Assembly: GCA_022833215.1 (NCBI GenBank) | Contig: JAIPUZ010000126.1 | Span: 57,041-121,040, forward strand | Source: Mesorhizobium sp. | GTDB taxonomy: Bacteria; Pseudomonadota; Alphaproteobacteria; Rhizobiales; Rhizobiaceae | Reading direction: 5' to 3' | Length of the DNA: 64,000 nucleotides | In this document: positions 37,354-61,364 of the stretch, piece after piece | Position numbering within the stretch: the first letter of the stretch is position 1 | Layout of the letters: each line of letters starts with the position of its first letter | Notes under the pieces: generated by a model | What the model was told of the DNA's origin: nothing | Database searches by the model: none | What the model saw: only the letters and a program-made list of their open reading frames with translations | Made by a program: the position numbers and the translations under genes

Positions 37354-38082
37354 CTATTTGACAGTTGCTTCCGGCGCTGCGAGGAGAGTCTGCCATGTGG
37401 CCAGGGCTTGAGACAAGTGTCGGTCCATCATTCCCACTGCCAATTCGGTACGACGACCCTCAATGGCTTCAAGTATCTCACAATGATCGTCATAAGCTTG
37501 CGTGCTCCGCGAATAATCCGAAAAGTATATTATGCGACGCTGTTTTGAAAATTCATAAAATAATTTCACAGTGCGAAGCAGTATTGTATTTTGCGTTGCA
37601 GCGACGATTCCAAGATGGAACGCTTCATCCTCAGCTTCAATTGTCTTTTTGCTATCGATTGCAAGTTTCGTTCTTTTGAGAATTTCCTTCAGCTGATCTA
37701 TGTCCTGATCTCTCCTTCTGTCGCAGGAAATCCGTACGCTCTGCAGCTCCAGAATACTTCGCACTTCAAACACGTCCTTAGTCTCTTCAGCTTGGAACGG
37801 CAGACCAGAAGACGCACGAAGAACCAGGGCCTCAATGCTACTTTCCTCGGAATGTCTAAGATAGATCCCAGAGTTAGGCCTTCGCTCAATGACACGCATC
37901 GACTCGAGAGCGGCCAAAGCCTCGCGAACCGCCCCGCGACTGACATTGAACCTGTCGGCAAAATCACGTTCCGATGGCAATCGTTCGTTCGGCTGATATC
38001 GACGCTCATCAATGAATGAGAGCATTTTACCTACAACGTTCGGGACCCCGGCAATCCTATCGCTTTCCGCTTTTTCAAGCAT
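37354..38082 (-). CDS. GntR-family regulator (FadR subfamily), likely regulator of the island
   Basis: 242-residue regulator with a winged helix (RLPSERDFADRFNVSRGAVR, then EALAALESMRVIERR) and an FCD ligand-binding domain (DEAFHLGIVAATQN, YDDHCEILEAI, DRHLSQALATW). I place the start at 38082 (MLEKAESDR). The 20-bp element RYYGG-N5-CCAATYTGGT occurs 127 bp upstream (38209-38228) and at four other promoters of this island. This makes the protein the best candidate for the factor that binds them, probably as a substrate-relieved repressor that also controls itself. Confidence 0.88.
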   Translation of the reverse strand: MLEKAESDRIAGVPNVVGKMLSFIDERRYQPNERLPSERDFADRFNVSRGAVREALAALESMRVIERRPNSGIYLRHSEESSIEALVLRASSGLPFQAEETKDVFEVRSILELQSVRISCDRRRDQDIDQLKEILKRTKLAIDSKKTIEAEDEAFHLGIVAATQNTILLRTVKLFYEFSKQRRIIYFSDYSRSTQAYDDHCEILEAIEGRRTELAVGMMDRHLSQALATWQTLLAAPEATVK

Positions 38083-38208
38083 TTTTCGGTCTTTTTCCAG
38101 TTGTTCGTCAGTCCCAATCAGGTCCAACCCGATACGGAAAGGTGATAAGTCATACGCGGATGGCTTGGCAACTCGTACCCTAAGTACCAGTGAAACCCTA
38201 ACCGGTCT

Positions 38209-38228
38209 ACCAAATTGGTAAATCCGAC
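38209..38228 (-). promoter_or_regulatory. Operator-like element A, upstream of the gntR gene
   Basis: The minus strand reads GTCGGATTTACCAATTTGGT, matching RYYGG-N5-CCAATYTGGT shared with sites B-E. The core TACCAAATTGGTA is a perfect odd-length palindrome, as expected for a GntR dimer. Its position supports autoregulation. Confidence 0.65.
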
Positions 38229-38259
38229 TCCGCTCGCCGCGCTTGGCCAACACTGAACT

Positions 38260-38423
38260 GATGGGGGATGCCCCTTCGCCCGGCGTCGTATGATGCCGTC
38301 CGCGCCGGTGTGGCGCTGTCGAAGGAGGAGACCATGTCAGACGTGCATATTTTGGCGATCGACCTCGCCAAGCGGAGCTTCCAGGTCTGTGCCACCGATC
38401 GGGGTGGGGCGTGTGTGGATGCC
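38260..38423 (+). mobile_element. IS110-family insertion sequence remnant (left end)
   Basis: An ATG at 38334 with a GAAGGAGGAG ribosome-binding site opens MSDVHILAIDLAKRSFQVCA and continues to about 38423. This is the N-terminus of an IS110-type DEDD transposase, preceded by the short upstream segment usual for these elements. The frame then runs into unrelated sequence. Only about 30 codons remain. Confidence 0.65.
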
Positions 38424-38614
38424 CCCATAAGTGCAAGTGATTTTTCAAACGGCTCGGGGTGTGATCGGGTGCAGTCATGTGTCAGGCCTTAAAATGCGGC
38501 TCTCATCATGGCCGCTGGCCGGTATGGCGATGCGGAGTGTGCAGCTCACCACCCGACTTGGAGGTCAGTCTGCCGCAAAGTTTATCGGTAAAACCCGCTT
38601 CCAGGCACATTCCG

Positions 38615-38644
38615 CAGGCAAAAGCGGTTTCACGCTTTTGCCTG
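38615..38644 (-). terminator. Perfect hairpin after glcG
   Basis: A 12-bp perfect inverted repeat CAGGCAAAAGCG / CGCTTTTGCCTG with a 6-nt loop lies 8 bp downstream of the glcG stop on the minus strand. It lacks a following T-run but is well placed to end or protect the glc transcript. The bases 38430-38610 show no gene. Confidence 0.5.
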
Positions 38645-38652
38645 AAAATGCG

Positions 38653-39084
38653 TTAGCCCTTGTCCGCGGCCAGGCCCACCTGTTCGACAGCATGCGCCGC
38701 GCAGATTTCGTCGTTGTCCGATGTATCGCCGGAGATTCCAACAGCACCGAGGGTTTCGCCCGCTTCCCCGCGTATTATGACACCACCGGGAACCGGGACG
38801 ATCTTCCCGCCGGAAACGCCGGACAGGGCTTGGACAAAATGAACGCGCTCGGCGGCGGCCGCGTTCAGCCAGCGGGAGCCCGAACCGACCGCCAGGGCGC
38901 CATAGGCTTTGCCAAAGGCGATTTCGAAGCGGAGCATGGAAGAACCATCCTGCTTCTGGAATGCGATGAGGTGGCCGCCTGCATCGAGCACCGCGACCGA
39001 AAGCGGCTTCAGGTTGAGCTCCCGCCCCCGATCCAGCGCGGATTCGATTATGCGATTGGCGACATTCAACGTGATGGTATTCAT
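38653..39084 (-). CDS. glcG: GlcG/HbpS-family protein
   Basis: 143-residue protein of the GlcG/HbpS (DUF336) family: LKPLSVAVLDAGGHLIAFQ, RFEIAFGKAYGALAVG and GGVIIRGEAGETLGAVGISG. It is found with glycolate oxidase genes; its function is unproven (HbpS binds haem; a stabilising or protective role is often suggested). It starts 26 bp after glcB and is last in glcDEF-glcB-glcG. Confidence 0.9.
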   Translation of the reverse strand: MNTITLNVANRIIESALDRGRELNLKPLSVAVLDAGGHLIAFQKQDGSSMLRFEIAFGKAYGALAVGSGSRWLNAAAAERVHFVQALSGVSGGKIVPVPGGVIIRGEAGETLGAVGISGDTSDNDEICAAHAVEQVGLAADKG

Positions 39085-39110
39085 GCATCTTATCCTGTTC
39101 CGAAAACTTT

Positions 39111-41291
39111 CTAGCCGGCCGCCTTCGCCTTCAGCTCCAGCCGGCGCGCATGCAGCACCGGCTCGGTGTAGCCGCTCGGCTGGGCGCGGCCCTTGATGAC
39201 CAGATCGGCCGCCGCGAGGAAGGCGATGGACTGGTCGAAATTCGGCGCCATCGGGCGATAGTTCGGGTCGCCCTCGTTCTGGCGGTCGACCACGCCGGCC
39301 ATTCGCTTCAGGGTCTCCATCACCTGCGTCTCGGTGACGACGCCATGATGCAGCCAGTTGGCCATGTGCTGGGCCGAGATGCGCAGCGTCGCGCGGTCCT
39401 CCATCAGGCCGACATTGTTGATGTCCGGCACCTTGGAGCAGCCGACGCCCTGATCCACCCAGCGCACGACATAGCCGAGAATGCTCTGTGCATTGTTGTC
39501 AAGCTCGCGCTGGATGTCCTCCGGCGACCAGTTCGGGCGCGTGGCGACCGGAATGGAAAGGATGTCGTCGAGCTCGGCCTTTTTGCGCGACTTCAATTGC
39601 TCCTGCACGGCCTTCACGTCCACCTTGTGGTAATGCGTGGCGTGCAGCGTCGCGGCGGTCGGCGAGGGCACCCAAGCGGTGTTCGCGCCGGCCCTGGGGT
39701 GGCCGATCTTCTGCTCCAGCATGGCCGCCATCAGGTCGGGCATGGCCCACATGCCCTTGCCGATCTGGGCATGGCCCTGCAGGCCGCATTCCAGCCCGGT
39801 ATCGACGTTCCAGCTCTCATAGGCCTGGATCCAGGCCGAGGTCTTCATGTCGCCCTTGCGGATCATCGGGCCGGCTTCCATGGAGGTGTGCATCTCGTCG
39901 CCGGTGCGGTCGAGGAAGCCGGTATTGATGAAGGCGACCCGGTCCTTGGCGGCGCGGATGCACTCCTTGAGGTTGACCGTGGTGCGGCGCTCCTCGTCCA
40001 TGATGCCGAGCTTGATCGTGTTCTTCTTCATGCCGAGCAGCTTCTCGACGCGGCCGTAGAGCTCGACGGAGAACGCGACCTCCTCCGGCCCGTGCATCTT
40101 CGGCTTGACGACATACATGGAGCCGGCGCGCGAATTCCTGAAGCGGCCCTTCGGCCCGATGTCGTGCAGGGCGATCAGCGACGTGATCGCGGCATCCATG
40201 ATGCCTTCCGGAATCTCGCTGCCATCCTCCAGCAGGATGGCCGCATTGGTCATCAGGTGGCCGACATTCCTGACCAGCATCAGCGAGCGGCAGACGACCT
40301 CGAAGGACGAGCCGTCCGGCGCCTTGTATCTCAGGTCGGGATTGAGCTTGCGGGTGAAGGTCTTGCCGCCTTTCTCGACCTCTTCCTTCAGGTCGCCCTT
40401 CATCAGGCCGAGCCAGTTGGCATAGACCGCCACCTTGTCCTCGGCATCGACCGCCGCGACCGAATCCTCGCAGTCCTGGATCGTGGTCAGCGCCGATTCC
40501 ACCCAGACATCGGAGATATGCGCCGGATCGTTCTTGCCGATGTTCGATTCCGCGTCGACCAAAATTTCGATGCCGAGGCCGTTATTGCGCAGCAGGACCT
40601 GCGTCGGCGCGGTCTTCCTGCCGAGATAGCCCGCGAACTGCCTGCCTTTCGCGAGGCCGGTCGTCTTGCCGCCGGTCAGCGTCACGACCAGCTTGTCGTC
40701 CATCACGGCGAAGCTCTTCGCCTTGGTCCAGCTCGCGCCCTTCAGCGGCACGGAATCGTCGAGAAAGCGCCGCACCCATTCGATCACCTTCGCCCCGCGC
40801 CTGGGGTTATACCCCTTGCCCTTTTCCGCGCCGTCCGTCTCGGGGATTGCGTCGGTGCCGTAGAGCGCGTCGTAGAGCGAGCCCCAGCGCGCATTGGCGG
40901 CGTTCAGCGCGTAGCGCGCATTCATCACCGGCACGACGAGCTGCGGGCCCGCGACTTTCGCGATCTCGGGATCGACATTCTTCGTCGTCACCTTGAACGC
41001 CTCGCCTTCGGGAACCAGGTAGCCGATCTTCTTGAGGAATTTCTTGTAGGCGTCCAGATCGACCGCGCCCGGATTCGCCCGGTGCCAGGCGTCGATCTTC
41101 TCCTGGATCTCGTCGCGCTTTTCGAGCAGCGCCCGGTTCTTCGGCGCGAGGTCGTGGACGATCCTGGCGAAGCCGGCCCAAAACTCGGCAGGCTTGATGA
41201 CGGTGCCCGGCATCGCGCGCTTGTTGACGAAATCGTAGAGCCCGCGATCGACCTGCAACCCGCCGACTTCGATCCGATTCGCCATGTCCAA
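39111..41291 (-). CDS. glcB: Malate synthase G
   Basis: 726-residue monomeric malate synthase condensing glyoxylate with acetyl-CoA to give malate. Hallmarks are [55 protein letters not shown] and [20 protein letters not shown]. It lies between glcF and glcG, so glycolate made glyoxylate by GlcDEF is directly assimilated. Full length, no disruptions. Confidence 0.96.
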
Positions 41292-41334: not shown

Positions 41335-42627
41335 TTACGGCGTCCCAAGTCCTGCGGGTTTAGGCCCGCCGGTCGCCCAATCTAGAAGCTCGGCGATATG
41401 AACGACTGGAATGTCCGTTCCCGATCCGATCTGCATCATGCAACCGATGTTTCCGGCGCCAATAACCTGCGGCGCGGTCGCCTCCAATGTCGTGATCTTG
41501 CGCGACTTGAGTTGGGACGAAATCTCGGGCTGCATCAGATTATAGATGCCGGCGGAGCCGCAACAGATGTGACCATCGCGCGGCTCCACCACTTGGAAAC
41601 CTGCTGCTTTCAACAGATCCTTGGGCGCGGCTCGGATCTGTTGCCCATGCTGAAGCGAGCATGCGGCGTGATAGGCTACCCGGAGGGGCTCGGCATGGGC
41701 CGGTTCCCTGAGGCCGATAGAGTTCATTACTTCGCTGATGTCCTTTGCCAGAGCCGAAACGCGCGCGGCGTCTGCCGCCAGCGGATCGTCGCGGAACATG
41801 TGGCCATAGTCCTTCACGGTCGTTCCGCAGCCGGACGTGTTGATGACGACGGCGTCGAGGCCGTCGCCATCCAGTTCGGCGACGAGCGCCCGGATGTTTG
41901 CGGCCGCCATGCGGTGGCTCTCATCGGTCTTGCCCATATGGTGCGTGAGCGCACCGCAGCAACCCAGCCCTTTGGGAATGACGACCTCGCAACCGTGTCG
42001 TTGCAACAGCCTGATCGTGGCGTCGTTGATGTCGGTGTTCAGGACGCGCTGTGCGCAGCCGGTCAACAGGGCGACGCGCTTCTGCCTGCCGGTCTCGGCG
42101 GCGAAGGTCTGGGGGCGGTCGTTGAAACTGGGTGAGGGGATTTGGGCCGGCACCATGTCAAGCATCGCCCTTAGGCGGGCGTCCGGCAGCAGCCTTCGAA
42201 ACGGCTTCGCAAGCTTCCCGCCGATCAATGCGAGACGGAACCGACCGGGATAAGGTAGGATTTTCCCCAGAATCCAACGTAGCGCGCGGTCGTCCCACCG
42301 GCGCTTGTAGTTTTTCTCGATGTATTCCCGTGCGTGATCGACGAGATGCATATAGTGCACACCAGAAGGGCAAGTGGTCATGCAACTCAGGCAACTAAGG
42401 CAGCGGTCGATATGCTTCACCGTTTGCCTGTCCGGGACCTTGCCGTTTTCCATCATATCCTTGATCAGGTAAATGCGTCCGCGCGGGCTGTCGAGTTCAT
42501 CGCCAAGAACCTTGTAGGTAGGGCATGTGGCCGTGCAAAAACCGCAGTGAACGCACGATCTGAGAATTTCGTTCGAGCGCCTGGTCGTCGCGTCGGTCAA
42601 CTGTTCTGCCGTGAAGTTCGTCTGCAT
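41335..42627 (-). CDS. glcF: Glycolate oxidase iron-sulfur subunit
   Basis: 430-residue subunit with two [4Fe-4S] cysteine motifs (C25-x2-C28-x2-C31-x3-C35 and C76-x2-C79-x2-C82-x3-C86) and two C-terminal CCG domains (GLGCCGALTHHMG, CCGSAGIYNL) that carry electrons from GlcD/E to the quinone pool. The start at 42627 immediately follows the glcE stop; a longer frame is an overlap artefact. Confidence 0.95.
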   Translation of the reverse strand: MQTNFTAEQLTDATTRRSNEILRSCVHCGFCTATCPTYKVLGDELDSPRGRIYLIKDMMENGKVPDRQTVKHIDRCLSCLSCMTTCPSGVHYMHLVDHAREYIEKNYKRRWDDRALRWILGKILPYPGRFRLALIGGKLAKPFRRLLPDARLRAMLDMVPAQIPSPSFNDRPQTFAAETGRQKRVALLTGCAQRVLNTDINDATIRLLQRHGCEVVIPKGLGCCGALTHHMGKTDESHRMAAANIRALVAELDGDGLDAVVINTSGCGTTVKDYGHMFRDDPLAADAARVSALAKDISEVMNSIGLREPAHAEPLRVAYHAACSLQHGQQIRAAPKDLLKAAGFQVVEPRDGHICCGSAGIYNLMQPEISSQLKSRKITTLEATAPQVIGAGNIGCMMQIGSGTDIPVVHIAELLDWATGGPKPAGLGTP

Positions 42628-42628
42628 C

Positions 42629-43777
42629 TCAGCGTCCCATCCGGCCCGGGTTGAAAATCCCGGCGGGATCAAAAACGTTGCGAAGCGACGCTGCCAGGGC
42701 CGCCGCGCCCGGGGCTTCGTTTATGAACGCGGGACCCGTACCGCCGGGGCCGGGACGCGCGAGCGTCACCACCCCTTCCGGAACTGCGGCGCGCACGGCG
42801 GCGCAATCCGCGTTCCCGCAATACCAGATCAGCGCCGCGCCCCAATCGAGCGAGCTCTCGCCTCCCAGACGTTCGAGGGCTTCCATCGTGGCGGGTGCTT
42901 CGGTAGGCTTGACTAGGATGCGCCAGACGGCATCGGAGCGGTCGGCAAAGTGGCGAACGTCCCTCAGGTTTCGCCACAAATGGCGGCTTTTCCCATCCTC
43001 AAGCGTGTCGATATCCCGGCCGCGGAACAGGGCTTGCAGCCGCTCGCACCGGTACTCGACCTGACGAGACAGTCCTTCGATGCGCAGCCATGCCGTTCTG
43101 TCGAAGAATGCGGCGCCGGAAACTTCGAAAGGCGTCGCCAGCGCCGTCGAGAATATGGCGACGGCCTCGCGTGATGACAGCCCGCCGAAGACCAGAGTCT
43201 TCTGGGCCTCGGCCGAAGGAAGCGTTTTCAGGGCCACCTCCGTTAGGATGCCAAGCGTCCCATGCGAGCCACAGAGCAATTTCCCGAGGTCCATCCCGGT
43301 AACGTTCTTCATCACCCGTCCGCCATTCCTGATGATCCGGCCTTGCCCGTCGACGAACCGGACGCCGAGCAGGTGATCGCGGCATGCGCCGGCTTGAATG
43401 CGTCTTGGCCCGGAGAGGTTGGCGCCGACCATGCCGCCGATGGTCGGCGTGCCGTCTGTCGCAAGCAGCACGCGATAATCCATCGGCTCGAAGGCTAGCG
43501 ACTGGCCCTCGGTCGCCAGCAGCCGCTCGATCTCACCGACCGACGCGCCCGTACGTACGATCAGGGTCAGTGCGCCCGGCTCGTAGGCGACGATCCCGCC
43601 AATCTCGCGTGTCGTCAGAACCGAATCTGCCGCAACGGAGGCGCGGCTCTGGGTGCCACCTCCGCAAATATGGAGTTTCCGCTTCTGCCGGAAGCTGTCC
43701 GCGACGAGTGCCGCCAGCTCGGCTTCGCTCCCTGGAACCGCCGCATCGGCGCCCCGGCTTTCCGTCCCCTCCGTCAT
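42629..43777 (-). CDS. glcE: Glycolate oxidase FAD-binding subunit GlcE
   Basis: 382-residue subunit with a FAD_binding_4 core (LHICGGGTQSRASVAADSVL, VSGAAFFDRTAWLRI, GMVGANLSGPRRIQAGACRD, HGTLGILTEVALK). It forms glycolate dehydrogenase with GlcD and GlcF. Its ATG overlaps the glcD stop (ATGA at 43777-43774), which fixes the start. Confidence 0.94.
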   Translation of the reverse strand: MTEGTESRGADAAVPGSEAELAALVADSFRQKRKLHICGGGTQSRASVAADSVLTTREIGGIVAYEPGALTLIVRTGASVGEIERLLATEGQSLAFEPMDYRVLLATDGTPTIGGMVGANLSGPRRIQAGACRDHLLGVRFVDGQGRIIRNGGRVMKNVTGMDLGKLLCGSHGTLGILTEVALKTLPSAEAQKTLVFGGLSSREAVAIFSTALATPFEVSGAAFFDRTAWLRIEGLSRQVEYRCERLQALFRGRDIDTLEDGKSRHLWRNLRDVRHFADRSDAVWRILVKPTEAPATMEALERLGGESSLDWGAALIWYCGNADCAAVRAAVPEGVVTLARPGPGGTGPAFINEAPGAAALAASLRNVFDPAGIFNPGRMGR

Positions 43778-45228
43778 ACCCTTTTCGCCGCCTCCCGATG
43801 AGGCTGGCTGATCTCGAGAGGGAAGACCTTCGCCGGATTCAGCAGCCAATGAGGATCGAGCGCCCCCTTGATCTCCATCTGGATCGCCATGTCGTCCGGC
43901 GCATATTGCTTCGTCATAAGGTCGCGTTTTTCGATCCCCACGCCGTGTTCGCCAGTGAGGCAGCCGCCCATGTCCACGCACAAGCGAAGAATGTCGCTTC
44001 CGAAGGATTCGGCTCGCTCGAGGTCGCCGGGCTTGTTGGCGTCGAACAAGATCAGGGGGTGCATGTTTCCGTCGCCGGCATGAAAGACATTGGCGACCTC
44101 AAGCCCGTGTTCCTTTGAGAGCTCGCCGATCCGTTTCAGGGTGTGGGGCAGCTTCGAAACCGGCACCGTGCCGTCGAGGCACAGATAGTCGCCTAAGCGG
44201 CCCATCGCCCCGAAGGCCGATTTGCGGCCCTTCCATATCGCCAGCGACTCGTCGGCGTTGCGGCTGCTGCGGAATTCGGCGGGGTTCAGTTCCGATGAGA
44301 TTGCCTTGATGCGCTCGATCTGATCGGCGATTTCGTCTTCCGAGCCCTCGACCTCGACGATCAGGACGGCGGCGCAATCGGGATAGCCCACTTTTGCAAA
44401 GGCCTCGACCGCACGCAGGCAGACATCGTCCATGTACTCGATCGCCACCGGCAGGAGGCCGGAGCGAATGATGCGGGCCACGCATTCGCCCGCCGTTTCG
44501 GCGCTGTCAAAGCCAATCAGCATCGGCCGTGCGCCCTCGGGGCGCGGCAGGATGCGCAACGTCGCTTCGGTCACGATCGCGAGTTGCCCTTCGGAGCCGC
44601 AGATAAGCCCCAGGATGTCCAGACCCGCCATGCCGAGATGGGGACCGCCAAGCTGGACGATCTCTCCGGTGGCAAGCACCATGCGGACGCCGAGAAGGTT
44701 GTTCGTGGTGACGCCGTATTTCAGGCAGTGGGCGCCGCCGGAATTCATCCCGATATTCCCGGCGATCGTGCACGCAAGCTGCGACGACGGGTCCGGTGCG
44801 TAGAAAAACCCTTCCGCCTCCAGCTCCGCGCTGACGGAAAGGTTGGTGACGCCCGTCTGAACCCTGATGAAACGGTTTGCGGTATCTATCTCGAGAACGG
44901 CCCGCAGCCGCATGGTGCCGATGACCACGCTATCGGCAGTCGGAAGCGCTCCGCCTGCCAGCGACGTGCCGGCACCGCGCGGGATAACCGGAACACGCAG
45001 ATCGTGGCAAATCTTCATCGCCGCCGCCACCTGCTCGGTAGTGCACGGTAGAACCACGGCGAGCGGCGGACATCGGTAGGCGGTCAGCGCGTCGCACTCA
45101 TATGCGCGGGTTTCCTCGGGGTCCGAGACGATCGCGTCCGCGGGAAGGACGGCCCTCAACGCCGCGACGATTTCGGGCTTGCGGGCGATGATCGCAGCGT
45201 CGGGAGCGGGCATGGCAATTCTGGACAT
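43774..45228 (-). CDS. glcD: Glycolate oxidase catalytic subunit GlcD
   Basis: 484-residue FAD-linked oxidase: FAD-binding PRGAGTSLAGGALPTADSVV, GAHCLKYGVTTNNLLG, CGSEGQLAIVTEATLRILP and C-terminal CLTGEHGVGIEKRDLM. It oxidises glycolate (or a related 2-hydroxy acid) to glyoxylate. The start is set at 45228 (MSRIAMPAPDAA); upstream in-frame residues have no similarity. It is the first gene of glcDEF-B-G and lies 255 bp downstream of the CoA-transferase gene on the same strand, so transcription may begin at the CoA-transferase promoter. The gap 45229-45483 shows no gene. Confidence 0.95.
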   Translation of the reverse strand: MSRIAMPAPDAAIIARKPEIVAALRAVLPADAIVSDPEETRAYECDALTAYRCPPLAVVLPCTTEQVAAAMKICHDLRVPVIPRGAGTSLAGGALPTADSVVIGTMRLRAVLEIDTANRFIRVQTGVTNLSVSAELEAEGFFYAPDPSSQLACTIAGNIGMNSGGAHCLKYGVTTNNLLGVRMVLATGEIVQLGGPHLGMAGLDILGLICGSEGQLAIVTEATLRILPRPEGARPMLIGFDSAETAGECVARIIRSGLLPVAIEYMDDVCLRAVEAFAKVGYPDCAAVLIVEVEGSEDEIADQIERIKAISSELNPAEFRSSRNADESLAIWKGRKSAFGAMGRLGDYLCLDGTVPVSKLPHTLKRIGELSKEHGLEVANVFHAGDGNMHPLILFDANKPGDLERAESFGSDILRLCVDMGGCLTGEHGVGIEKRDLMTKQYAPDDMAIQMEIKGALDPHWLLNPAKVFPLEISQPHREAAKRV

Positions 45229-45483
45229 TGGCTCAAACCTGTCTGATCGAAAGCATCGAAGAACGAGACGCTCCTTCGCACCCGCCTTCATCGAGGCACA
45301 AAAGATGCGCAGGCTCGCGATGAGGCGACCTATGAGCATCGCAGCTGTTTACCGGGCTCCACGCGGGAGATCCGCTGGGCGAAGGAGAAGCGCGATATCT
45401 CGCTGCGGCGGCTCGCCAGCGATAGTCTTGGCACGTCGAACGCCTGACAACCGCAACCGAGGGCGCGCGCAGCCCGCCCTGTG

Positions 45484-51584: not shown

Positions 51585-53243
51585 ATGTCGAGTTACGACT
51601 ATATTATCATTGGTGCAGGTTCCGCCGGGTGTGTTTTAGCCACCCGCCTGAGTGAAGACGCCAATGTGAGCGTTTTGCTGATCGAGGCGGGCGGAGGGAA
51701 GTCGCTGTTTGTCGATATGCCCGCCGGAATCAGGATCCTCTATACGAGCGATCGGTACAACTGGCGCTTTTGGACTGAGCCGCAGCGACATCTTGACAAT
51801 CGCCGGATCTATATTCCCAGGGGGAGGGTTATTGGAGGGTCGTCATCAATCAATTCGATGATCGCGATCCGCTGCAACCCTTGGGACTACGATTCGTGGG
51901 CGTCTCGGGGCATGCCTAAGTGGAGCTTTTCCGCAATGCTCCCCTATTTGCGCAGGATTGAGGATGCTAGCCTGGTTGTTCAGCCTGATAATGGAACGCG
52001 CGGGCACAGCGGACCCATCAAGCTTTCCTTCGGGCCACGGCGCTCGACCACGCAGGCGTTTGTCGACAGTCTCGTCGCTGCAGGTTTGCCTGAGAACAAT
52101 GGATTCAACGGGTCGTCGCAGATAGGCGCGGGCTTCTACGAACTTACGATAGCACATGGAAAGCGGTCCGGCGCATTCAAGTACTTAGAACGCGCCAAGG
52201 GACGCCCAAACCTCACCATTCTGCCAAATTGTCATGTTCGTCGCATCAACGTTGAAGGAGGTTCTGCCAGTGGCGTGATCGTGGTTCAGAATGGCCGCGA
52301 GAGGACAATCAACTGTGATCGAGAAGTTCTGCTGACGGCAGGCGCAATCGGTTCGCCGCAGCTTTTGATGTTGTCGGGTATCGGGCCTGCTGATCATATG
52401 CGGTCTCTCGGCATTAAACCGGTTCACCACCTCCCGGGTGTGGGAGAGAATCTTCAGGACCATCTCGACTGCGCGGTTCGCTTCGAGGCATCGCAGCCGA
52501 CGACGTTGACCCCCTATATGGGCCTCCTGAAAGGCGGGATGGCCGGTGCTCGATACATTCTCAAAGGCGATGGGCCGGCCGCTTCACAGGCCGTGGAGGC
52601 GGGGGCGTTTTGGGGCCCCGACCGATCGTCGCCGTTGCCGGAGTGGCAGGCGCACTTTGCTAACGTTCTCCGCAATCCGCCGCCCGGCGAGCGTATCGCT
52701 CACGGCTTCGCTGTTCGCGTATGTCAGCTCAGGCCACAAAGTCGCGGTACGGTGAGATTGCGAAGCGGGGACCCCGCCATTCCACCAGCAATCGACCCGC
52801 GTCTTGGGTCCGAGCATGCGGACCTCGCGAGTCTGAGAGATGGCGTGCGCGATATGTGCGATATGATGATGTGCGGACCACTCAAGAACTTCGTAAAACG
52901 CCCGATCGATGCGGAAGCCTTTGGCAATCTCTCCTCGCTGGAGACTTTCGTGCGAGCGCGGGCCGAGACGGTATATCATCCCGTTGGGACCTGTCGCATG
53001 GGTGCTGATGATGCATCGGTCGTGGACCCGAGCATGAAAGTCCGCGGTCTTGATGGTCTGCGGGTCGTCGACGGTTCGGTGATGCCAACGCTTCTAAGCG
53101 GCAATACAAACCTGCCCATTATGGCGATGGCCGAGAAAATCGCTGACGAACTTATTCACGGTGAAAGCTTTTCGCCTGAGTACCCGATCGCTGGGCAGAT
53201 GCTTGCGCATGACGCGCATGGGCGCCGCCCGCCCTCCTCCTGA
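51585..53243 (+). CDS. GMC-family FAD-dependent oxidoreductase (alcohol/choline dehydrogenase-like)
   Basis: 552-residue glucose-methanol-choline oxidoreductase. It has the FAD-binding YIIIGAGSAGCVLATRLSED, the IPRGRVIGGSSSINSMI segment, GAIGSPQLLMLSGIGP, and the catalytic His in YHPVGTCRMG plus Asn in SGNTNLPIMAMAEKI. It oxidises a primary alcohol to an aldehyde, typically passing electrons to a carrier. A GGAGAAGG ribosome-binding site supports the start at 51585. In this island it is the likely first oxidation step; polyethylene-glycol dehydrogenase (PegA) belongs to the same family. The substrate is unproven. Confidence 0.9.
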   Translation: MSSYDYIIIGAGSAGCVLATRLSEDANVSVLLIEAGGGKSLFVDMPAGIRILYTSDRYNWRFWTEPQRHLDNRRIYIPRGRVIGGSSSINSMIAIRCNPWDYDSWASRGMPKWSFSAMLPYLRRIEDASLVVQPDNGTRGHSGPIKLSFGPRRSTTQAFVDSLVAAGLPENNGFNGSSQIGAGFYELTIAHGKRSGAFKYLERAKGRPNLTILPNCHVRRINVEGGSASGVIVVQNGRERTINCDREVLLTAGAIGSPQLLMLSGIGPADHMRSLGIKPVHHLPGVGENLQDHLDCAVRFEASQPTTLTPYMGLLKGGMAGARYILKGDGPAASQAVEAGAFWGPDRSSPLPEWQAHFANVLRNPPPGERIAHGFAVRVCQLRPQSRGTVRLRSGDPAIPPAIDPRLGSEHADLASLRDGVRDMCDMMMCGPLKNFVKRPIDAEAFGNLSSLETFVRARAETVYHPVGTCRMGADDASVVDPSMKVRGLDGLRVVDGSVMPTLLSGNTNLPIMAMAEKIADELIHGESFSPEYPIAGQMLAHDAHGRRPPSS

Positions 53244-53328
53244 AAGCCTCCGTTTACCGTCCGCGGAACGCTGTAACGGTGCGAAAGCGCCCAAACCGTT
53301 TTCGTAGCTTTTGAACTCGCAGGGTACG

Positions 53329-54711
53329 ATGGCTGATTTTGATGTTGATCTGGCAGTAATTGGTGGTGGTTCAGGCGGGGTCCGCGCGGCGCGGGTTGCT
53401 GCTAGCTATGGGGCCAAGGTCATTGTTGCTGAAGGAGATCGGGTTGGCGGGACCTGCGTCATCCGTGGCTGCGTGCCCAAAAAGCTTATGGTTTATGCTT
53501 CAGATTTCCAGAAAGAGATCGGGAACGCGGCGGGCTTCGGATGGTCGATTCCCCCAGCGAAATTCGATTGGGGAGTATTGACGGGAAATAGAGACAGGGA
53601 AGTCTCCCGTCTCGAAGCCGCATATACGTCGGCGATCGAACGGTCGGGAGCGCGCCTAGTGAAAGAGCGCGCGACGTTCCAAGACGCTCGTACCTTGCGA
53701 CTTGCCAATGGGGAGACGGTGCGTGCTCGCAATATACTGATTGCCACAGGCAGCATGCCGAACCACGGGGAGGCAATACCGGGCATCGAGCATGTCATCT
53801 CGTCCGACAAGGTCTTTGAGCTTCGTGAATTGCCGAGACGGATCATAATTCAAGGAGGAGGCTACATCGCGGTTGAGTTCGCATGCATATTTGCCGGTCT
53901 CGGTTCGAAAGTGACTTTGGTTTGTCGGAGCGACAACATCCTGCGCGGTTTCGATCAAGACATAAGGACACATGTTCGGGATGCTCTGGAGCAGCAGGAG
54001 ATTAGGATTGTCACTGACTGCCGGATCAAAAGAGTCGACAGGATGGACGAAAGCAGTGGCGTATTGAAAGCTAGTCTTTCAAACGCTGAACAGCTCGTCG
54101 CCGACCAAGTCATGTTTGCGATCGGACGAAAGCCCAACACTCAAGGCCTAAATCTCCAGAAATCTGGCGTTGCGCTAAGTGCTGACAGCGGCGGCGTCGC
54201 GGTCAACGAGAACTCGCAGACGAATGTGCCCCATATCTATGCGGTCGGCGACGTGACAAATCGCGTCAACCTTACCCCTGTAGCCGTGCGCGAAGCGCAG
54301 GCCTTTGCAGATTCGGTATTTGGCAAGCGTCCCACGCAGGTCGACTATACGGATATCCCGACTGCGGTTTTCTCGCGTCCGGAAGTCGGATCAGTTGGAC
54401 TATCGGAGGCACAAGCCTGTGCCCGGTTTGAAAGGGTGGACATCTACAAAACGGATTTCCGGCCGATGAAGGTTGCCCTCTCCCACAGCTCCGAACGAAT
54501 GATGATGAAACTCGTCGTGGATGCCGATTCCGGGAGGGTCGTCGGCTGCCATATTGTCGGATCTGGCGCTGCGGAGATCATCCAGGCAGTTGCGATTGCG
54601 ATAAGAATGAAAGCCGTAAAGGAGGACTTCGATGCAACGATGGCTCTTCATCCAACTGCGGCGGAAGAACTTGTCACGATGCGGACGGCCACCAGGCGCT
54701 GCGTTCGTTAA
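53329..54711 (+). CDS. gor: Glutathione-disulfide reductase-like flavoprotein
   Basis: 460-residue pyridine nucleotide-disulfide oxidoreductase. It has N-terminal FAD binding (LAVIGGGSGGVRAAR), the redox-active disulfide Cys43/Cys48 in GGTCVIRGCVPKK, a second nucleotide site (GGGYIAVEFACIFAGLGSKV, with Arg residues following as in NADPH-using enzymes) and the C-terminal His-Glu pair in LHPTAAEELVTMR. These fit glutathione reductase better than dihydrolipoamide dehydrogenase. It presumably keeps glutathione reduced for the GST encoded downstream. It lies 85 bp after the GMC gene on the same strand. Confidence 0.85.
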   Translation: MADFDVDLAVIGGGSGGVRAARVAASYGAKVIVAEGDRVGGTCVIRGCVPKKLMVYASDFQKEIGNAAGFGWSIPPAKFDWGVLTGNRDREVSRLEAAYTSAIERSGARLVKERATFQDARTLRLANGETVRARNILIATGSMPNHGEAIPGIEHVISSDKVFELRELPRRIIIQGGGYIAVEFACIFAGLGSKVTLVCRSDNILRGFDQDIRTHVRDALEQQEIRIVTDCRIKRVDRMDESSGVLKASLSNAEQLVADQVMFAIGRKPNTQGLNLQKSGVALSADSGGVAVNENSQTNVPHIYAVGDVTNRVNLTPVAVREAQAFADSVFGKRPTQVDYTDIPTAVFSRPEVGSVGLSEAQACARFERVDIYKTDFRPMKVALSHSSERMMMKLVVDADSGRVVGCHIVGSGAAEIIQAVAIAIRMKAVKEDFDATMALHPTAAEELVTMRTATRRCVR

Positions 54712-56800: not shown

Positions 56801-57070
56801 CCGCGAACGTCGCGGTCGTCGGGACGGCTGGTCTGTAGCGAACCGTCATGCGGCGGCAGCCGATGTCTTTACACGCCCGCCGTTCGCTCATCCCGAAGGC
56901 AAGTTCTGTTTGGAAGCCCGTCACTTTCAGCCCGTGGAGGGCTGTCCAATACCGGCCAAGGCGCGATCAACGTGTGCTACTGCCGAAAGGACCGTGCCGA
57001 CCAGATACATCAAGGATAGCGATGGCGCAGTTCAGGGCGCGATCTACTCCAAAACCCATTGACTGCCAGA
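56801..57070. other. Gene-free upstream region of the flavoenzyme
   Basis: About 270 bp without a recognisable gene, between the IS remnant and operator-like site D. An open frame runs through it into the flavoenzyme but has no ribosome-binding site or family similarity. A TTGACT box lies at 57059-57064, a likely -35 element. Confidence 0.35.
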
Positions 57071-57090
57071 ACTGGATATGCCAATTTGGT
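57071..57090 (+). promoter_or_regulatory. Operator-like element D, upstream of the flavoenzyme gene
   Basis: ACTGGATATGCCAATTTGGT, 78 bp before the GTG start. The TTGACT box at 57059-57064 puts the -10 region inside the element, as at sites C and E. Confidence 0.65.
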
Positions 57091-57168
57091 CGAACCAGAT
57101 CGCGATGTTTCCCGAACGTATGCGCACCTGGATGGTTGGACGTTGAAAATCTCGAAGGAGGAAGCGCC

Positions 57169-58821
57169 GTGGCGAAGGAAAAGAGCGGCTACTATGGCAC
57201 GCGTAGGAAATTCTGGACGTGGGGATATGAAGGGGAAGACAATTCCCAGGACGAAATCCGTATCATGCGAGAACGCGTGGAGCAGCGGCTTGGGATTAAG
57301 GATATCGAAGTTCTCTCGGACCCGACCCTTGATGAGATTGAACTTTATCCGTCGCGCATAAAGATTCCGCGAACGCTGGAAGACTTCTGCACCACGGAAA
57401 AGTGGGACAGAGTTGTCCATACGTACGGTAAGGGTTTCAAGGACATGACCCTTATTTACCGGCGCGATTTCAAGAAGGCTCCGGACGTCGTGGCGTATCC
57501 ACGCGACGAAGAAGACATCGCCGCCATCTACGACTGGTGTGGCGAAAACGGCTATGCATGCATACCGTATGGCGGTGGATCGAGCGTCACAGGTGGCTTC
57601 TGGGGTCCCGAGCGCGACGCCTTTCCCGGCGTGGTAGTTATTGACCTGGGCAACCTCAACCAGATTCTTGAAATCGATCCTGTGTCACGCTGCGCGCGGA
57701 TTCAGGCAGGCATTCTCGGGCCGGCTCTGGAAGAACAGCTGAAGCCGCACGGCCTCACCCTGCGCCATATTCCGCAATCATGGGAATTCTCGTCGCTGGG
57801 CGGCTGGATTGCAACCCGTTCGTCCGGGCACTATGCGACCCATCTCACACATATCGACGACATGGTGGAAAGCCTGCGCGTCGTAACGCCCGCGGGAACG
57901 ATCCAGAATCGCCGGCTGCCAGGCTCGGGTGCAGGACCCGATCCGGATCGCCTGTTCATCGGGTCCGAAGGCACGATGGGCATCATCACCGATGCATGGA
58001 TGCGTCTGCAGGGACGTGTGAAATTCCGTGCGAATGCATCGATCTCCTTCAAGTCGTTTTATGAGGGTGCCAAGGCCGTCCGTCAGATCACCCAAGCGGG
58101 ACTGTTCCCGGCGAACGCTCGTTATCTCGACGAGCAGGACGCCAAATTCTACGGCGCTGGAGACGGCACCGATTCCGTCTTGCTGCTGGGCTTCGAATCC
58201 GCCGATCATCCAGTGGACGCGTGGCTGGAGCGTGGTCTCGAAATCTGCAAGGACTTCGGTGGCGTCGTGAAGCAGCGCGCGGGAACTGCGGACAACGCGC
58301 TGGAGACCAGCCGCAGCGGGCCGCAGGGTAACTGGCGGCACCAGTTCAGATATCTGCCCCGGCTGATGCATACGCGCGCTGCGATGGGTATCGTCAGCTT
58401 CACCTTTGAAACCGCCTATACTTGGGATCGGTTCGAAGAAGTCGATACCGAGATCATGCGTCGCGTACGGACGGCCCAGAAGGAACATCTTGGCGGCGGC
58501 ATCGTCTGCCGCAGGTTCTCCTTCCTGTATCCGGACGGTCCGGCTCCCTACTACTCGATCATGGCTCCTTCGACACATGCCAACAGCCTTGAAGCCTATT
58601 CGATGCTTCACGATGTGGCGTCGGACGCGCTAATTGAGCTCGGTGCCACGATCACGCACCATCATGCTGTCGGCAAATCGTTCCGTCCTTGGTACGACAA
58701 GGAAGTCGATCCGTTGTTCCGCCGTGTGCTGGCGGCTGCGAAAACCGAACTCGATCCAAATTGGATGTTGAACCCTGGCCTGCTTGTTGACAAGCCGGCA
58801 GGATTGAAGATCGTCGGATAG
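57169..58821 (+). CDS. FAD-linked oxidase related to alkyl-dihydroxyacetonephosphate synthase
   Basis: 550-residue flavoprotein of the VAO/GlcD superfamily. The FAD-binding segment PYGGGSSVTGGFWGPE is at about 134-149, followed by SLGGWIATRSSGHYATHLTH, IGSEGTMGIITDAWMRLQG and, near the end, the triple His497-499 in THHHAVGKSFRPWYDKE. This His block is the active-site signature of AGPS, the enzyme that makes the ether bond of ether lipids. The start is GTG at 57169 behind a strong AAGGAGG. It is followed 13 bp later by the GST gene. A role in making or breaking an ether or hydroxy-acid bond is plausible; plain 2-hydroxy-acid dehydrogenase activity is the alternative. Confidence 0.85.
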   Translation: MAKEKSGYYGTRRKFWTWGYEGEDNSQDEIRIMRERVEQRLGIKDIEVLSDPTLDEIELYPSRIKIPRTLEDFCTTEKWDRVVHTYGKGFKDMTLIYRRDFKKAPDVVAYPRDEEDIAAIYDWCGENGYACIPYGGGSSVTGGFWGPERDAFPGVVVIDLGNLNQILEIDPVSRCARIQAGILGPALEEQLKPHGLTLRHIPQSWEFSSLGGWIATRSSGHYATHLTHIDDMVESLRVVTPAGTIQNRRLPGSGAGPDPDRLFIGSEGTMGIITDAWMRLQGRVKFRANASISFKSFYEGAKAVRQITQAGLFPANARYLDEQDAKFYGAGDGTDSVLLLGFESADHPVDAWLERGLEICKDFGGVVKQRAGTADNALETSRSGPQGNWRHQFRYLPRLMHTRAAMGIVSFTFETAYTWDRFEEVDTEIMRRVRTAQKEHLGGGIVCRRFSFLYPDGPAPYYSIMAPSTHANSLEAYSMLHDVASDALIELGATITHHHAVGKSFRPWYDKEVDPLFRRVLAAAKTELDPNWMLNPGLLVDKPAGLKIVG

Positions 58822-58834: not shown

Positions 58835-59524
58835 ATGATTGATCTATACTTCTGGCCAACCCCCAACGGGTATAAAGCCGCTATAATGCTTGCAGAGTTG
58901 GACTTGGAGTACCGTGTAATTCCGGTTGATATAACGGCAGGAGAGCAGTTTAATCCGGACTTCCTGAAGATCAATCCAAACAACAAGGTGCCGGCCATCG
59001 TGGATCACGATGGCCCGCACAACAAACCTTATGCGGTTTTTGAATCCGCGGTTGTACTGATCTATCTTGCGGAAAAATCAGGAAAATTCCTTTCTCAGGA
59101 TCCTGAAAAACGCTATGAAACGCTAAAGTGGCTTGTCTTCCAGAATTCGACAATGGGTCCAATGCTGGGCCAAGCACACCACTTCATGGTGTATGCGGAT
59201 GAGAAGATAGATTACGCCATTGAACGTTACGACCGGGAAGTTGGTCGAATATACAACATTCTCGAAAAACGCCTTGGCCAACATGAATATCTTGCCGGCG
59301 AGTATTCGATCGCTGATATCAGCACATTCCCTTGGGTTCGCACCCGAAAATTGCATCGACGCGACTTGTCGGAGTACCCGAACATTGATCGATGGTACCA
59401 AGCGATCAAAGACCGTCCGGGGGTTCGGGCGGGCATAGATACGTTGTCCGACAGCAAACGATGGGAAGCTAAGCCGGGCACCGAGGCTTGGAAGAACATG
59501 TTCGGAAAGAACGGAAGCTCGTAA
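58835..59524 (+). CDS. Glutathione S-transferase (Nu-class / YfcG-like)
   Basis: 229-residue GST with the thioredoxin-fold N-terminal domain (LYFWPTPNGYKAAIMLAE, INPNNKVPAIVD, VFESAVVLIYLAEKSG) and the helical C-terminal domain (LAGEYSIADISTFPWVR). The TPNG active-site motif without catalytic Tyr/Ser/Cys is typical of Nu-class enzymes, which act as disulfide reductases or glutathione-releasing enzymes. It starts 13 bp after the flavoenzyme gene; with the glutathione-reductase-like gene upstream it points to a glutathione-dependent step in the island's pathway. Confidence 0.9.
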   Translation: MIDLYFWPTPNGYKAAIMLAELDLEYRVIPVDITAGEQFNPDFLKINPNNKVPAIVDHDGPHNKPYAVFESAVVLIYLAEKSGKFLSQDPEKRYETLKWLVFQNSTMGPMLGQAHHFMVYADEKIDYAIERYDREVGRIYNILEKRLGQHEYLAGEYSIADISTFPWVRTRKLHRRDLSEYPNIDRWYQAIKDRPGVRAGIDTLSDSKRWEAKPGTEAWKNMFGKNGSS

Positions 59525-59551
59525 CAATCACACAAATCCTCCCAGGCGTCA

Positions 59552-59576
59552 GGCGCGGCGATCTGTTCGTCGCGCC
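59552..59576. terminator. Hairpin after the GST gene
   Basis: A 10-bp stem (GGCGCGGCGA / TCGTCGCGCC, one G-T pair) with a 5-nt loop, 27 bp after the GST stop. No T-run follows, so termination is uncertain. The rest of 59525-59719 has no gene. Confidence 0.45.
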
Positions 59577-59741
59577 TGCGCCGCGTAGCGGCACTTGAGG
59601 CAGCGGTTCTCCCTGCGGGGGCTAGCTCAGGATCTTGAACAATTCTGAGCGACCGTAAAGCCGTTTGAAGTCACCTACTATATCGGGCCACGAATCCGGC
59701 TGATGGATTGATTATCTACTTGACAGCCGAGGGATTGGATG

Positions 59742-59761
59742 ACCAAATTGGATATACCAAT
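59742..59761 (-). promoter_or_regulatory. Operator-like element E with consensus -35 box, upstream of the acyl-CoA synthetase
   Basis: The minus strand reads ATTGGTATATCCAATTTGGT. A perfect TTGACA (59720-59725) lies 16 bp upstream, so the element covers the -10 region. An ATG at 59739 overlaps the operator and would be untranslated or the first base of the transcript. This argues for translation starting at 59799. Confidence 0.65.
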
Positions 59762-59798
59762 AGCCGCGCTGAAACTATCAGGATCTGGGGAAATTGAG

Positions 59799-61364
59799 AT
59801 GGATTTTTCGGCCGAACTGCCTCGTCGCATTCATATGATCTTGGAGGAAGGCGCGACGTTCGGTGAGTCCCGCGTCGCCTTTACAGACGAAAACGGGATT
59901 GATTGGTCCTACCGCCGGCTGATTGACACTGTCGAAGCTGTCTCTAGTGAACTGCGGGAACTAGGGATTCGGCCGGGTGATCGGATGATGATCGTTTGCG
60001 AAAACTCGATCGGGGCTATCGTTCTAATGTACGCTGCTAGCCGGTTGGATGCATGGGCGGTGCTAGCGAACGCCCGGCTCAGCAAGCATGAACTTGCTCT
60101 TATAGAAGAGGATTGCCAGCCGCGGCGTATATTTCGCACCCATCCCAACGTGTCTGCAACAGATGCGGGTGACGATAATGCTGATGTGCGGCTCTTTACT
60201 GGCATTGGCGCCGTGACGATCGGTCCGTTAAATGAGAACAGCGCGCCGGAAGAAGTACACGAAGGATCCGCAGAGCAAGTCGCCGTTCTAGTCTACACTA
60301 CTGGAACCACGGGGCGCCCCAAGGGGGTTATGCTGAGCCATCGCAATCTGACTTTCGTCTCAAGCAGGGGAAGACGAACACAAACTCTTTCTCGCGACGA
60401 TGTCGCCTTGTGTGTCATGCCGATATCTCATTCGTACGGGCTCGTGTTGATGCAAGGCATGTTGTACGCCGGCGCGCGCATGAAAATTATGCCGCGATTT
60501 TCATTACAAGAAGCGCTGGATGCTGTTCGCAGCGGAGAGCTGACGATTTTCAACGCCGTTCCTGCCATGCTGACCCGGGTGGTGGCACATGTCGAACAGA
60601 CTGGGGAAAAGCTCACGCCTAACAACCTCCGGTACGCCTACACGGGCACCGCGCCGCTCGATCTGTCTTTGCGTAAGAATGTCGAACGGCTGTTCGGCGT
60701 AGTTCTGCAAAACGGATACGGATTGACGGAAACATCGCCGACGATCAGCCGGTCGCGTTATTCGATGGGTAGCGACGAGGTCAACATTGGTCCACCGATA
60801 CAAGGGGTTGAGATCAGGATCGTCGGACCTGACGGTCTGGATGTCCCAGAGGGCCAGCCGGGAGAATTGCTAGTTAGAGGTCCCAATGTGATGTTGGGAT
60901 ACTATCGCCAACCGAAAGCGACCGCCGAAGTTATTGACGAGGACGGCTATCTTCATACTGGCGATATCGTCAGCCGCAACGATCGGGGCGAATTAGTCAT
61001 TCAAGGTCGATCGAAGGAATTGATCATTCGCTCTGGCTTCAATGTCTATCCTCCGGAAGTCGAAGCCGCCCTAAATGCGCATCCCAGCATTCTTAACTCC
61101 GCCGTGGTCGGTCGTCCTGTTGAGGGAAATGAGGAAATTATAGCCTTCGTGGAAATGTTACCTGAAAGGCGTTGCGAGACGGATGACATTAAGTCCTTTC
61201 TGAAAAGCCGTCTTGCCCAGTACAAGTTGCCGCAGCAGATTATTGTTATGCAAAATTTGCCGATCGCTCCGAATGGAAAGATAAAGAAGAACGACTTGAA
61301 AAAATACTTGGATAATTTGAGCGATCCGATGGTCACGTGCTTCCGAGAACGCTCTGGGTCATGA
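59799..61364 (+). CDS. Acyl-CoA synthetase (AMP-forming)
   Basis: 521-residue adenylate-forming ligase: phosphate-binding loop VYTTGTTGRPKGVMLSHRNL, NGYGLTETSP, YLHTGDIVSRNDRGEL, SGFNVYPPEVEAAL and the C-terminal lysine in PNGKIKKNDL. I use the ATG at 59799 (MDFSAELPRRIH) with a GGGGA ribosome-binding site, because the in-frame ATG at 59739 lies in the promoter/operator. It activates a carboxylic acid to its CoA thioester; with the aldehyde dehydrogenase 64 bp downstream it would process an aldehyde to acid to acyl-CoA sequence. The PEG operon of Sphingopyxis also contains an acyl-CoA ligase gene. Confidence 0.9.
   Translation: MDFSAELPRRIHMILEEGATFGESRVAFTDENGIDWSYRRLIDTVEAVSSELRELGIRPGDRMMIVCENSIGAIVLMYAASRLDAWAVLANARLSKHELALIEEDCQPRRIFRTHPNVSATDAGDDNADVRLFTGIGAVTIGPLNENSAPEEVHEGSAEQVAVLVYTTGTTGRPKGVMLSHRNLTFVSSRGRRTQTLSRDDVALCVMPISHSYGLVLMQGMLYAGARMKIMPRFSLQEALDAVRSGELTIFNAVPAMLTRVVAHVEQTGEKLTPNNLRYAYTGTAPLDLSLRKNVERLFGVVLQNGYGLTETSPTISRSRYSMGSDEVNIGPPIQGVEIRIVGPDGLDVPEGQPGELLVRGPNVMLGYYRQPKATAEVIDEDGYLHTGDIVSRNDRGELVIQGRSKELIIRSGFNVYPPEVEAALNAHPSILNSAVVGRPVEGNEEIIAFVEMLPERRCETDDIKSFLKSRLAQYKLPQQIIVMQNLPIAPNGKIKKNDLKKYLDNLSDPMVTCFRERSGS

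Follow-up and report, generated by a model that had tools for sequence, protein, structure and literature searches.

The 64,000-nt window analysed here, from contig JAIPUZ010000126.1 of Mesorhizobium sp., carries a gene island whose promoters share a conserved operator and which encodes a FadR-type GntR regulator of its own. We consider it probable that this island is a mobile polyether module, with transcription units repressed by its own GntR protein and relieved by a small acid. An earlier reading of the same DNA (the original prediction) had tied these genes into a single GntR regulon; computable tests support that grouping and extend it to a conserved, probably polyether, regulon. The sites, their conservation, their co-occurrence with the regulator and the identities of the genes are direct computational observations.

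The operator pattern ACCARATTGGNNNNNCCRRY (ACCARATTGG-N5-CCRRY in its core-strand form) matches the window exactly five times, at 38209-38228(+), 46768-46787(+), 46855-46874(-), 57071-57090(-) and 59742-59761(+), and none of 100 dinucleotide shuffles of the window contains an exact match. The original prediction of five copies at named promoters is thus borne out; four of its coordinates were exact, and the fifth, given as 46856-46875, was shifted by one. By exact match and alignment, the full operators around these cores span 38202..38228 upstream of gntR (operator 1), 46759..46787 at the CoA-transferase promoter (operator 2), 46855..46881 at the ABC importer promoter (operator 3), 57071..57098 at the promoter of the flavoenzyme and glutathione S-transferase (GST) genes (operator 4) and 59734..59761 at the acyl-CoA synthetase promoter (operator 5). 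Four copies do share the 10-mer ACCAAATTGG, as had been proposed, and the copy at 46768 reads ACCAGATTGG. The bare 10-mer, if one mismatch is tolerated, is found at 13 places in the window where 4.56 are expected, so the discriminating power sits in the full 20-mer. All five copies lie upstream of starts annotated in relatives (gntR starts vary between records), in agreement with the claim that each occupies a promoter region; mechanical frames cross four of the five as upstream extensions of genes.

The host genome (4,548,661 bases) contains six exact places, five of them the window copies and the sixth (C10) within an open reading frame (ORF) reading as an ABC-transporter ATPase, together with 12 more at one mismatch. 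When up to two mismatches are permitted, the pattern matches at 217 places and its reversed control at 45, and a pattern with an outer TGG at spacing 4 is found at 39; matches relaxed to two mismatches are therefore common and uninformative, and only strict or matrix-scored matches count. A cross-trained matrix of 31 columns was built from 24 nonredundant sites in other genomes, with the window, Aminobacter, Pseudorhizobium and Nitratireductor excluded, and was used to score the window and 20 host-genome pattern places (18 with at most one mismatch and 2 of the 199 with two). The five copies rank top in the window (37.6, 35.8, 33.3, 31.9 and 27.6 bits forward), and the reverse readings of sites 4 and 2 reach 31.8 and 31.6 bits, in agreement with the symmetry of the operator. 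The next-best window place overlaps site 2 at 15.0 bits, the best score in six Markov random sequences of window length is 15.5, and the 15 further host-genome places (the remaining 13 with zero or one mismatch and the two with two) stay at or below 13.0. Each of these 15 places falls within a frame of 200 codons or more, a crude test that also flags four of the five true sites because frames extend upstream of their genes. Equally good sites in coding DNA, which the original prediction had named as telling against it, did not appear in the exact and matrix-scored scans, the latter covering part of the 199 two-mismatch places.

The operators are retained in related islands. Islands with the same regulator occur on Aminobacter plasmids (88% DNA identity) and on a Pseudorhizobium flavum plasmid (97.6% DNA identity over the best-matching part, 47% of the query). 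P. flavum keeps every one of the five sites without a mismatch. Aminobacter does so for three, with one mismatch at the flavoenzyme site and two at the ABC site. Conserved columns inside versus outside the operator number 21/24 versus 83/177 at gntR (3 sequences), 19/25 versus 24/104 at the flavoenzyme (6), 22/28 versus 72/210 at the CoA-transferase (4), 20/26 versus 74/212 at the ABC importer (4) and 27/27 versus 118/155 at the synthetase (2). In rearranged islands the operator precedes the CoA-transferase, ABC, flavoenzyme and synthetase genes, and in Bradyrhizobium also a separate GMC gene. A site is not present at each unit in all islands. The GlcE query of this comparison was out of frame (3 stops), and GlcE is not validly covered by it. 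The Aminobacter island holds a decayed glcD remnant (L021:8789-9284) at the place of the window's glcDEF genes; glycolate oxidase is lost there and in Nitratireductor (L154). Despite this decay, the upstream promoter and malate synthase are kept in the Aminobacter island.

We then examined species genomes for flavoenzyme loci, taking the best 80 of 101 relatives, which gave 78 loci; 65 were scored for the operator, and 13 were left out as their match start lay off the standard position. An operator with at most two mismatches within 200 bp upstream was found at 23 of the 36 loci with at least 74% flavoenzyme identity (L026-L061) and at none of the 29 below 74%. The 33 genomes holding those 36 loci were searched for GntR at E <= 1e-30. 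A homologue is present in 20 of 22 operator-bearing genomes versus 0 of 11 operator-less ones, the latter including sphingomonads (Fisher test, p about 4e-7, with relatedness ignored). Identities of these homologues run from 91% to 58%, with 43% in a planctomycete metagenome-assembled genome (MAG), and clearly separate flavoenzyme clades stand at 98%, 95%, 91%, 79% and ~75% identity. Across 12 other genomes the exact pattern occurs at 18 places, 16 in or beside islands (one, G024:C4:86168, assigned by position alone, 1.4 kb beyond the stretch examined) and two elsewhere (G001:C10 and G008:C8). The three of these 12 genomes without GntR contain no exact match, and the reversed-pattern control matched once. 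Chance similarity was rejected in view of the empty shuffles, the cross-trained matrix scores and the 16 of 18 exact places at islands. A separate observation concerns Roseovarius azorensis (L042, L125), where a second flavoenzyme (79%) is accompanied by a GntR of 43% identity; by eye, this second island shows a diverged site, a doubled TGG-N5-CC whose centres lie 14 bp apart and which departs from the pattern at four positions.

The regulator itself (37354..38082, minus strand, 242 aa, start uncertain) matches PF00392 and PF07729 above the gathering score, giving it the N-terminal winged helix-turn-helix (HTH) and C-terminal FCD domain of the FadR type. Its predicted fold is likewise FadR-type (pLDDT 84.9), and Foldseek comparison with FadR, VanR, NanR and LldR gives query-normalised TM-scores of ~0.41-0.63. 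Residues R39, R49 and R53, as well as D152, H156, H200 and H222, are invariant in 18 of 18 aligned sequences. We take the arginines to be DNA contacts, by FadR numbering, and the second group (Asp-x3-His...His...His) to be FCD metal ligands, by the spacing of LldR (CGL2915). The winged HTH and FCD domain are shared with PdhR, LldR, GlcC, NanR and GlcR. Compared with the first four, the island protein falls below their NCBIfam cut-offs (NanR 114/260 bits, LldR 90/311, PdhR 65/330, GlcC 48/301), none of its hits reaching a cut-off, and its assignment as NanR, LldR, PdhR or GlcC was rejected. Unlike all five, its predicted targets are those of a polyether island. The eight further matches in the host genome are 24-35% identical, leaving the regulator without a close relative there, and gntR has an operator upstream of its own gene. 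These two points, together with the co-occurrence (20/22 versus 0/11 genomes), uphold the earlier choice of the neighbouring FadR-type GntR as candidate binder.

Comparison of sites across loci reveals an operator larger than 20 bp and often a double palindrome. The anatomy set comprised 54 sites, reduced to 33 by removing near-identical ones, with L021:982 (an Aminobacter locus) left out by hand, as was L022 beyond 12000, which contained no match; adding locus L157 gave 56 sites, of which 35 distinct ones were retained. The core is nearly invariant over the 33 nonredundant sites, an invariance partly selected by the search pattern. Outside that pattern, at -7 to -5, lies an outer box with T in 25, G in 21 and G in 25 of the 33. 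The outer GG precedes the CC of the CCA box by 5 bp in 18/35 sites and by 4 bp in 8/35, with no overlap between the sets, and spacings of 2, 3, 6, 7 or 8 bp occur in 0/35. A second palindrome is thereby present in 26/35 distinct sites, its centre 14 or 13.5 bp from that of the first. In the window, spacing 5 is seen at 46768 and 57071 and spacing 4 at 38209 and 59742; the site at 46855 is without the outer GG.

This architecture resembles that of known regulators in part. FadR-type regulators have similar TKGT/ACMA boxes, arranged as the palindrome TKGT-N3-ACMA, while NanR binds direct repeats (PMC4494728). Against that palindrome, the island sites have the GG-N5-CC spacing and the TTGG/CCA boxes, both pattern-selected, with flanking T in 21/33 and A in 18/33. 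The TTGG/CCAA boxes and the 5-bp GG-CC spacing are common to the island operator and the palindromes of the FadR subfamily (PdhR, LldR, GlcC, NanR apart from its direct repeats, and GlcR); what sets the island operator apart is an inverted box next to the core and, in many sites, a second palindrome. Weaker additional half-sites 7-12 nt from the palindrome centre have already been reported for the GntR family (PMC4494728), and the CCA box of the island operator lies ~10 nt from the centre. It differs from those half-sites in being strong (its invariance is partly pattern-selected) and in that the unselected outer GG completes a second palindrome in 26/35 operators.

Three of the operators lie close to -35-like boxes on the plus strand, each absent from the promoter-scan list. 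TTGACG at 46839..46844 belongs to the ABC promoter, and its TTGAC is kept in aligned relatives; TTGACT at 57059..57064 reads TTGACY in 6/6 aligned sequences, the window included; and TTGACA at 59720..59725 lies at the acyl-CoA synthetase promoter, where TTGAC stands near the core in all 8 synthetase sites. At the listed synthetase sites the distance from TTGAC to core is 22 bp in 7/8 and 24 bp in the eighth. In the window, in Paracoccus and in others, TTGAC lies on the opposite strand, at +27 for flavoenzyme sites and at +31 for ABC sites. A 17-bp spacer places the -10 hexamer within the operator at the three window promoters, although these hexamers match TATAAT poorly. The position of the operator just 3' of a conserved TTGAC box favours repression, as judged from the promoter sequences.

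We infer a mechanism in which GntR binds the operator, with two dimers per site, and represses until an effector arrives. In the absence of inducer, GntR dimers would occupy the core palindrome ATTGG-N5-CCRAT, the adjoining CCA box and, in most sites, the outer GG box, which completes a second palindrome that overlaps the first, their centres 13.5-14 bp apart. GntR would then cover the promoter just downstream of the -35-like box and block RNA polymerase. FadR-type effectors are small carboxylic acids (PMC4494728), and glycolate releases the alphaproteobacterial GlcR, which represses glcDEF in Paracoccus and is itself of the FadR type (PMC11323563). The predicted effector is therefore an ether acid or glycolate/glyoxylate. 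Such an inducer, arising from ether or glycolate metabolism, might be an alkoxyacetate (2-hydroxyethoxyacetate or a polyethylene glycol (PEG)-carboxylate), glycolate or glyoxylate, which would be held at the FCD metal site and release GntR. Release would allow joint production of GntR itself and of proteins for uptake (ABC), alcohol and aldehyde oxidation (GMC, aldehyde dehydrogenase (ALDH)), CoA activation and glutathione steps (acyl-CoA synthetase (ACS), CoA-transferase, GST, reductase), ether cleavage (flavoenzyme) and glycolate/glyoxylate disposal (glcDEF, malate synthase).

The genes of the island probably encode polyether catabolism, judging by their sequence relationships. On the plus strand, the FAD oxidase (the flavoenzyme, 57169..58821) is 90.7% identical, the GST (58835..59524) 92% and the acyl-CoA synthetase (59802..61364) 67% identical to proteins of Sphingopyxis macrogoltabida EY-1. 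The GMC flavin alcohol dehydrogenase (51549..53243), PEG-dehydrogenase-like, is 64% identical to an EY-1 GMC protein. The flavoenzyme and GST genes (57169-59524) together share 87.9% DNA identity over 2.4 kb with an EY-1 plasmid. The synthetase is putatively PegE-like. Strain EY-1 grows on polyethylene and polypropylene glycol (PPG), the responsible plasmid genes not being named there (PMC4669395). In Sphingopyxis, PEG dehydrogenase and aldehyde dehydrogenase yield PEG-carboxylate, and PEG-carboxylate dehydrogenase cleaves the ether to give glyoxylate and a shorter PEG (PMC7299911); long PEG-carboxylates are said to be processed by acyl-CoA synthetase and GST (PMC6987047, citing Somyoonsap 2008). 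From its pairing with GST and the PEG-growing host of its relative, the flavoenzyme is a predicted PEG-carboxylate dehydrogenase performing ether cleavage, and the putative substrate of the island is a polyether, an oligo-ethylene-glycol or an alkoxyacetate. The closest solved relatives of the flavoenzyme (57169-58821) are alkyl-dihydroxyacetone-phosphate synthases, which make ether bonds; the flavoenzyme is a predicted ether breaker.

The remaining plus-strand genes encode a UgpC-type ABC importer ATPase (46949..48067, NCBIfam above cut-off), a substrate-binding protein with two permeases (48278..51508, family searches and annotation of relatives), a glutathione-disulfide reductase (53311..54711, NCBIfam above cut-off) and an ALDH (61429..62865, family search). 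The minus strand carries a class III CoA-transferase (CaiB/BaiF, 45484..46710, family searches), a GlcD-like glycolate oxidase subunit (43774..45339, NCBIfam below cut-off), GlcE (ORF extent 42629..43981 with the true start inside, also below), GlcF (41335..42672, above cut-off), malate synthase G, which converts glyoxylate to malate (39111..41291, above cut-off), and a GlcG/HbpS-like heme-binding protein (38630..39088, no NCBIfam hit, relatives annotated 'heme-binding protein'). From the CoA-transferase gene to glcDEF-B-G the gaps are short except for 144 bp before glcD, and the only terminator-like match of the scan falls inside the CoA-transferase gene; read-through along this series is plausible.

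The likeness to the PEG genes of Sphingopyxis macrogoltabida and S. terrae, among them pegA, pegC and those for PEG-carboxylate dehydrogenase and GST, does not extend to all functions. The island ALDH is only 33% identical to the EY-1 protein, and EY-1 has an AraC-type regulator, a major facilitator superfamily (MFS) transporter and a TonB receptor where the island has GntR and an ABC importer. No operator within three mismatches was found in ~420 bp at each of 11 EY-1 genes, and the one 1-mismatch place in the EY-1 stretch lies within an annotated kinase gene. No AraC-type regulator appears among the classified island proteins, with no search aimed at AraC made. Dual AraC/GalR regulation of PEG-degradative genes has reportedly been described (Charoenpanich 2006, by its title).

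A further comparison links the island to 1,4-dioxane. Xanthobacter dioxanivorans YN2, a 1,4-dioxane degrader, carries on a plasmid an island with the same genes. The GntR encoded there is 62.5% identical, and three of the island promoters have operator-like sites. These sites have 1, 1 and 2 mismatches; three more two-mismatch places in the 41.7-kb stretch lie off island promoters. The published transcriptome reports that on dioxane versus citrate, glcFED cluster 2 (GE05986-88) rises 1.32-3.40-fold and the ALDH genes GE05991 and GE05994 rise 2.84-4.27-fold (PMC8508750). We place the GE numbers on the island by their apparent correspondence to the plasmid order glcF, glcE, glcD, GST, flavoenzyme, ALDH, ACS, reductase, ALDH.

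Several findings weigh against a single GntR-repressed regulon. In YN2 the ALDH genes are called constitutive and are highly expressed on citrate too, the increases of mox and gcl are far larger, and a second glcDEF-glcB cluster is also raised (PMC8508750), so the transcriptome's support for island regulation is modest. YN2 gntR has no upstream site at up to two mismatches in the stretch examined, and only 7 of 26 fetched GntR loci show a nearby site at one mismatch or fewer; autoregulation is therefore not general. The outer GG is missing in 9/35 sites. One of the counted GntR matches is partial (G005, 167 aa, 53%), and recent, nearly identical copies make up many of the loci with as well as without the operator, so that the counts are not independent and represent far fewer than 33 separate events; the operator-less loci L053-L056 and L058 share the same upstream match, as several copies of one sequence. 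At none of the three TTGACN boxes did the consensus scan find a sigma-70-like promoter whose -10 matches, and several ABC and flavoenzyme sites of Afipia and Bradyrhizobium have TTGAC at other offsets. Of the earlier claim that a TTGACN box sets the element over the -10 region, the boxes 5' of three sites and their conservation in relatives hold, but no consensus -10 is present and the placement depends on TTGACN and a 17-bp spacer. The repressor geometry is consequently weaker than it appears.

These promoter results bear on the alternative that GntR owns the operator but serves chiefly to activate, like E. coli GlcC, which we judge unlikely. Activation is what has been described for GlcC, a FadR-type protein encoded next to glcDEF (PMC11323563), no consensus -10 lies under the operators, and the absence of a consensus promoter at the flavoenzyme and synthetase sites led us to mark repression down and activation up. 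The operators nevertheless sit just 3' of conserved TTGAC boxes, which suits repression, and GlcR is reported as a glycolate-released repressor (PMC11323563). It is also improbable, to a similar degree, that the regulon is correctly drawn but serves glycolate or another hydroxyacid and not a polyether. The presence of glcDEF and malate synthase within the island and the small carboxylic acids that act on FadR-type proteins (PMC4494728) would fit such a substrate, but a PEG/PPG grower has a flavoenzyme-GST pair of 91-92% identity, and glcDEF is dispensable, having decayed in Aminobacter.

Two explanations dispense with the island GntR altogether. Real sites might be bound by a different FadR-type protein encoded elsewhere in the genome, given the similarity of TKGT/ACMA boxes among FadR-type regulators (PMC4494728) and the lack of a detected orthologue in two operator-bearing genomes (G004/L029 and G029/L057, both MAGs), a further point against our reading. 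This is highly improbable, since the operator co-occurs with the island GntR on moving islands and lies upstream of gntR itself, and the eight other host matches are just 24-35% identical. Still more remote is the idea that the sites are inherited promoter repeats, or repeats of mobile elements, that play no part in regulation. Insertion sequence (IS) debris in the island and the many recently copied loci lend it something, yet similarity peaks in the operator and drops in the flanks, the sites vary outside the boxes and occur on both strands, and they are kept in loci whose flavoenzyme is only ~75% identical. Repression by the island's own GntR thus remains the explanation we prefer.

The regulator is of a known kind, a FadR-type GntR, and we found no description of the regulon itself in the open-access literature. 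In the open-access texts consulted, a regulator of such genes is named nowhere outside sphingomonads, a scope that does not cover regulon databases such as RegPrecise, and the YN2 study never uses the word 'GntR' in its main text (PMC8508750). The nearest mention concerns GntR regulators that are either encoded next to dioxane monooxygenase (DxmA-like) genes or elevated in strain CB1190 (PMC12542641). The same source places EthD and GntR genes beside dioxane monooxygenase genes (PMC12542641); in Aminobacter an EthD-family gene adjoins gntR (L021:5272-5586). Ancylobacter polymorphus ZM13 has a multicomponent monooxygenase cluster beside its flavoenzyme-GST genes (L156:8282-22371); its 41.6 kb gave no GntR hit and no operator at one mismatch or fewer, with three places at two.

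The comparisons link a PEG module to a dioxane-degrading plasmid and show a regulon that stays intact through plasmid transfer and gene-order change. We suggest, tentatively and short of calling it probable, that one mobile FadR-type regulator with a double-palindrome operator and ether-acid sensing (for example of 2-hydroxyethoxyacetate) is a common polyether/1,4-dioxane switch across Alphaproteobacteria; the planctomycete MAG and the second Roseovarius island would then carry diverged (~43%) forms of both regulator and operator. PEG and 1,4-dioxane are widespread ether pollutants, and the regulon supplies a testable regulator, operator and gene set together with a candidate ether-acid sensor. 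Were the suggestion true, it would offer a ready-made biosensor for such pollutants.

A TrbI conjugation gene (35707-37005) lies directly beside the island, which places the island in a conjugative plasmid backbone. The PEG flavoenzyme occurs in 2 of 61 genomes of host relatives at E <= 1e-100, the host's own included and the other 51% identical, so the island is accessory. An IS256-family transposase remnant and other IS debris occupy 54744-56900, between the glutathione reductase and flavoenzyme genes, and by eye the start of an IS110-like transposase frame is seen at 38260-38480, just upstream of gntR. At the other end, a TraR-like quorum-sensing gene (63354-63890, N-terminal part only, 177/234 model positions) follows the ALDH gene by ~490 bp on the same strand and lies 110 bp from the contig end. 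Its layout, as we see it, recalls the substrate-linked traR/trlR genes of Ti plasmids.

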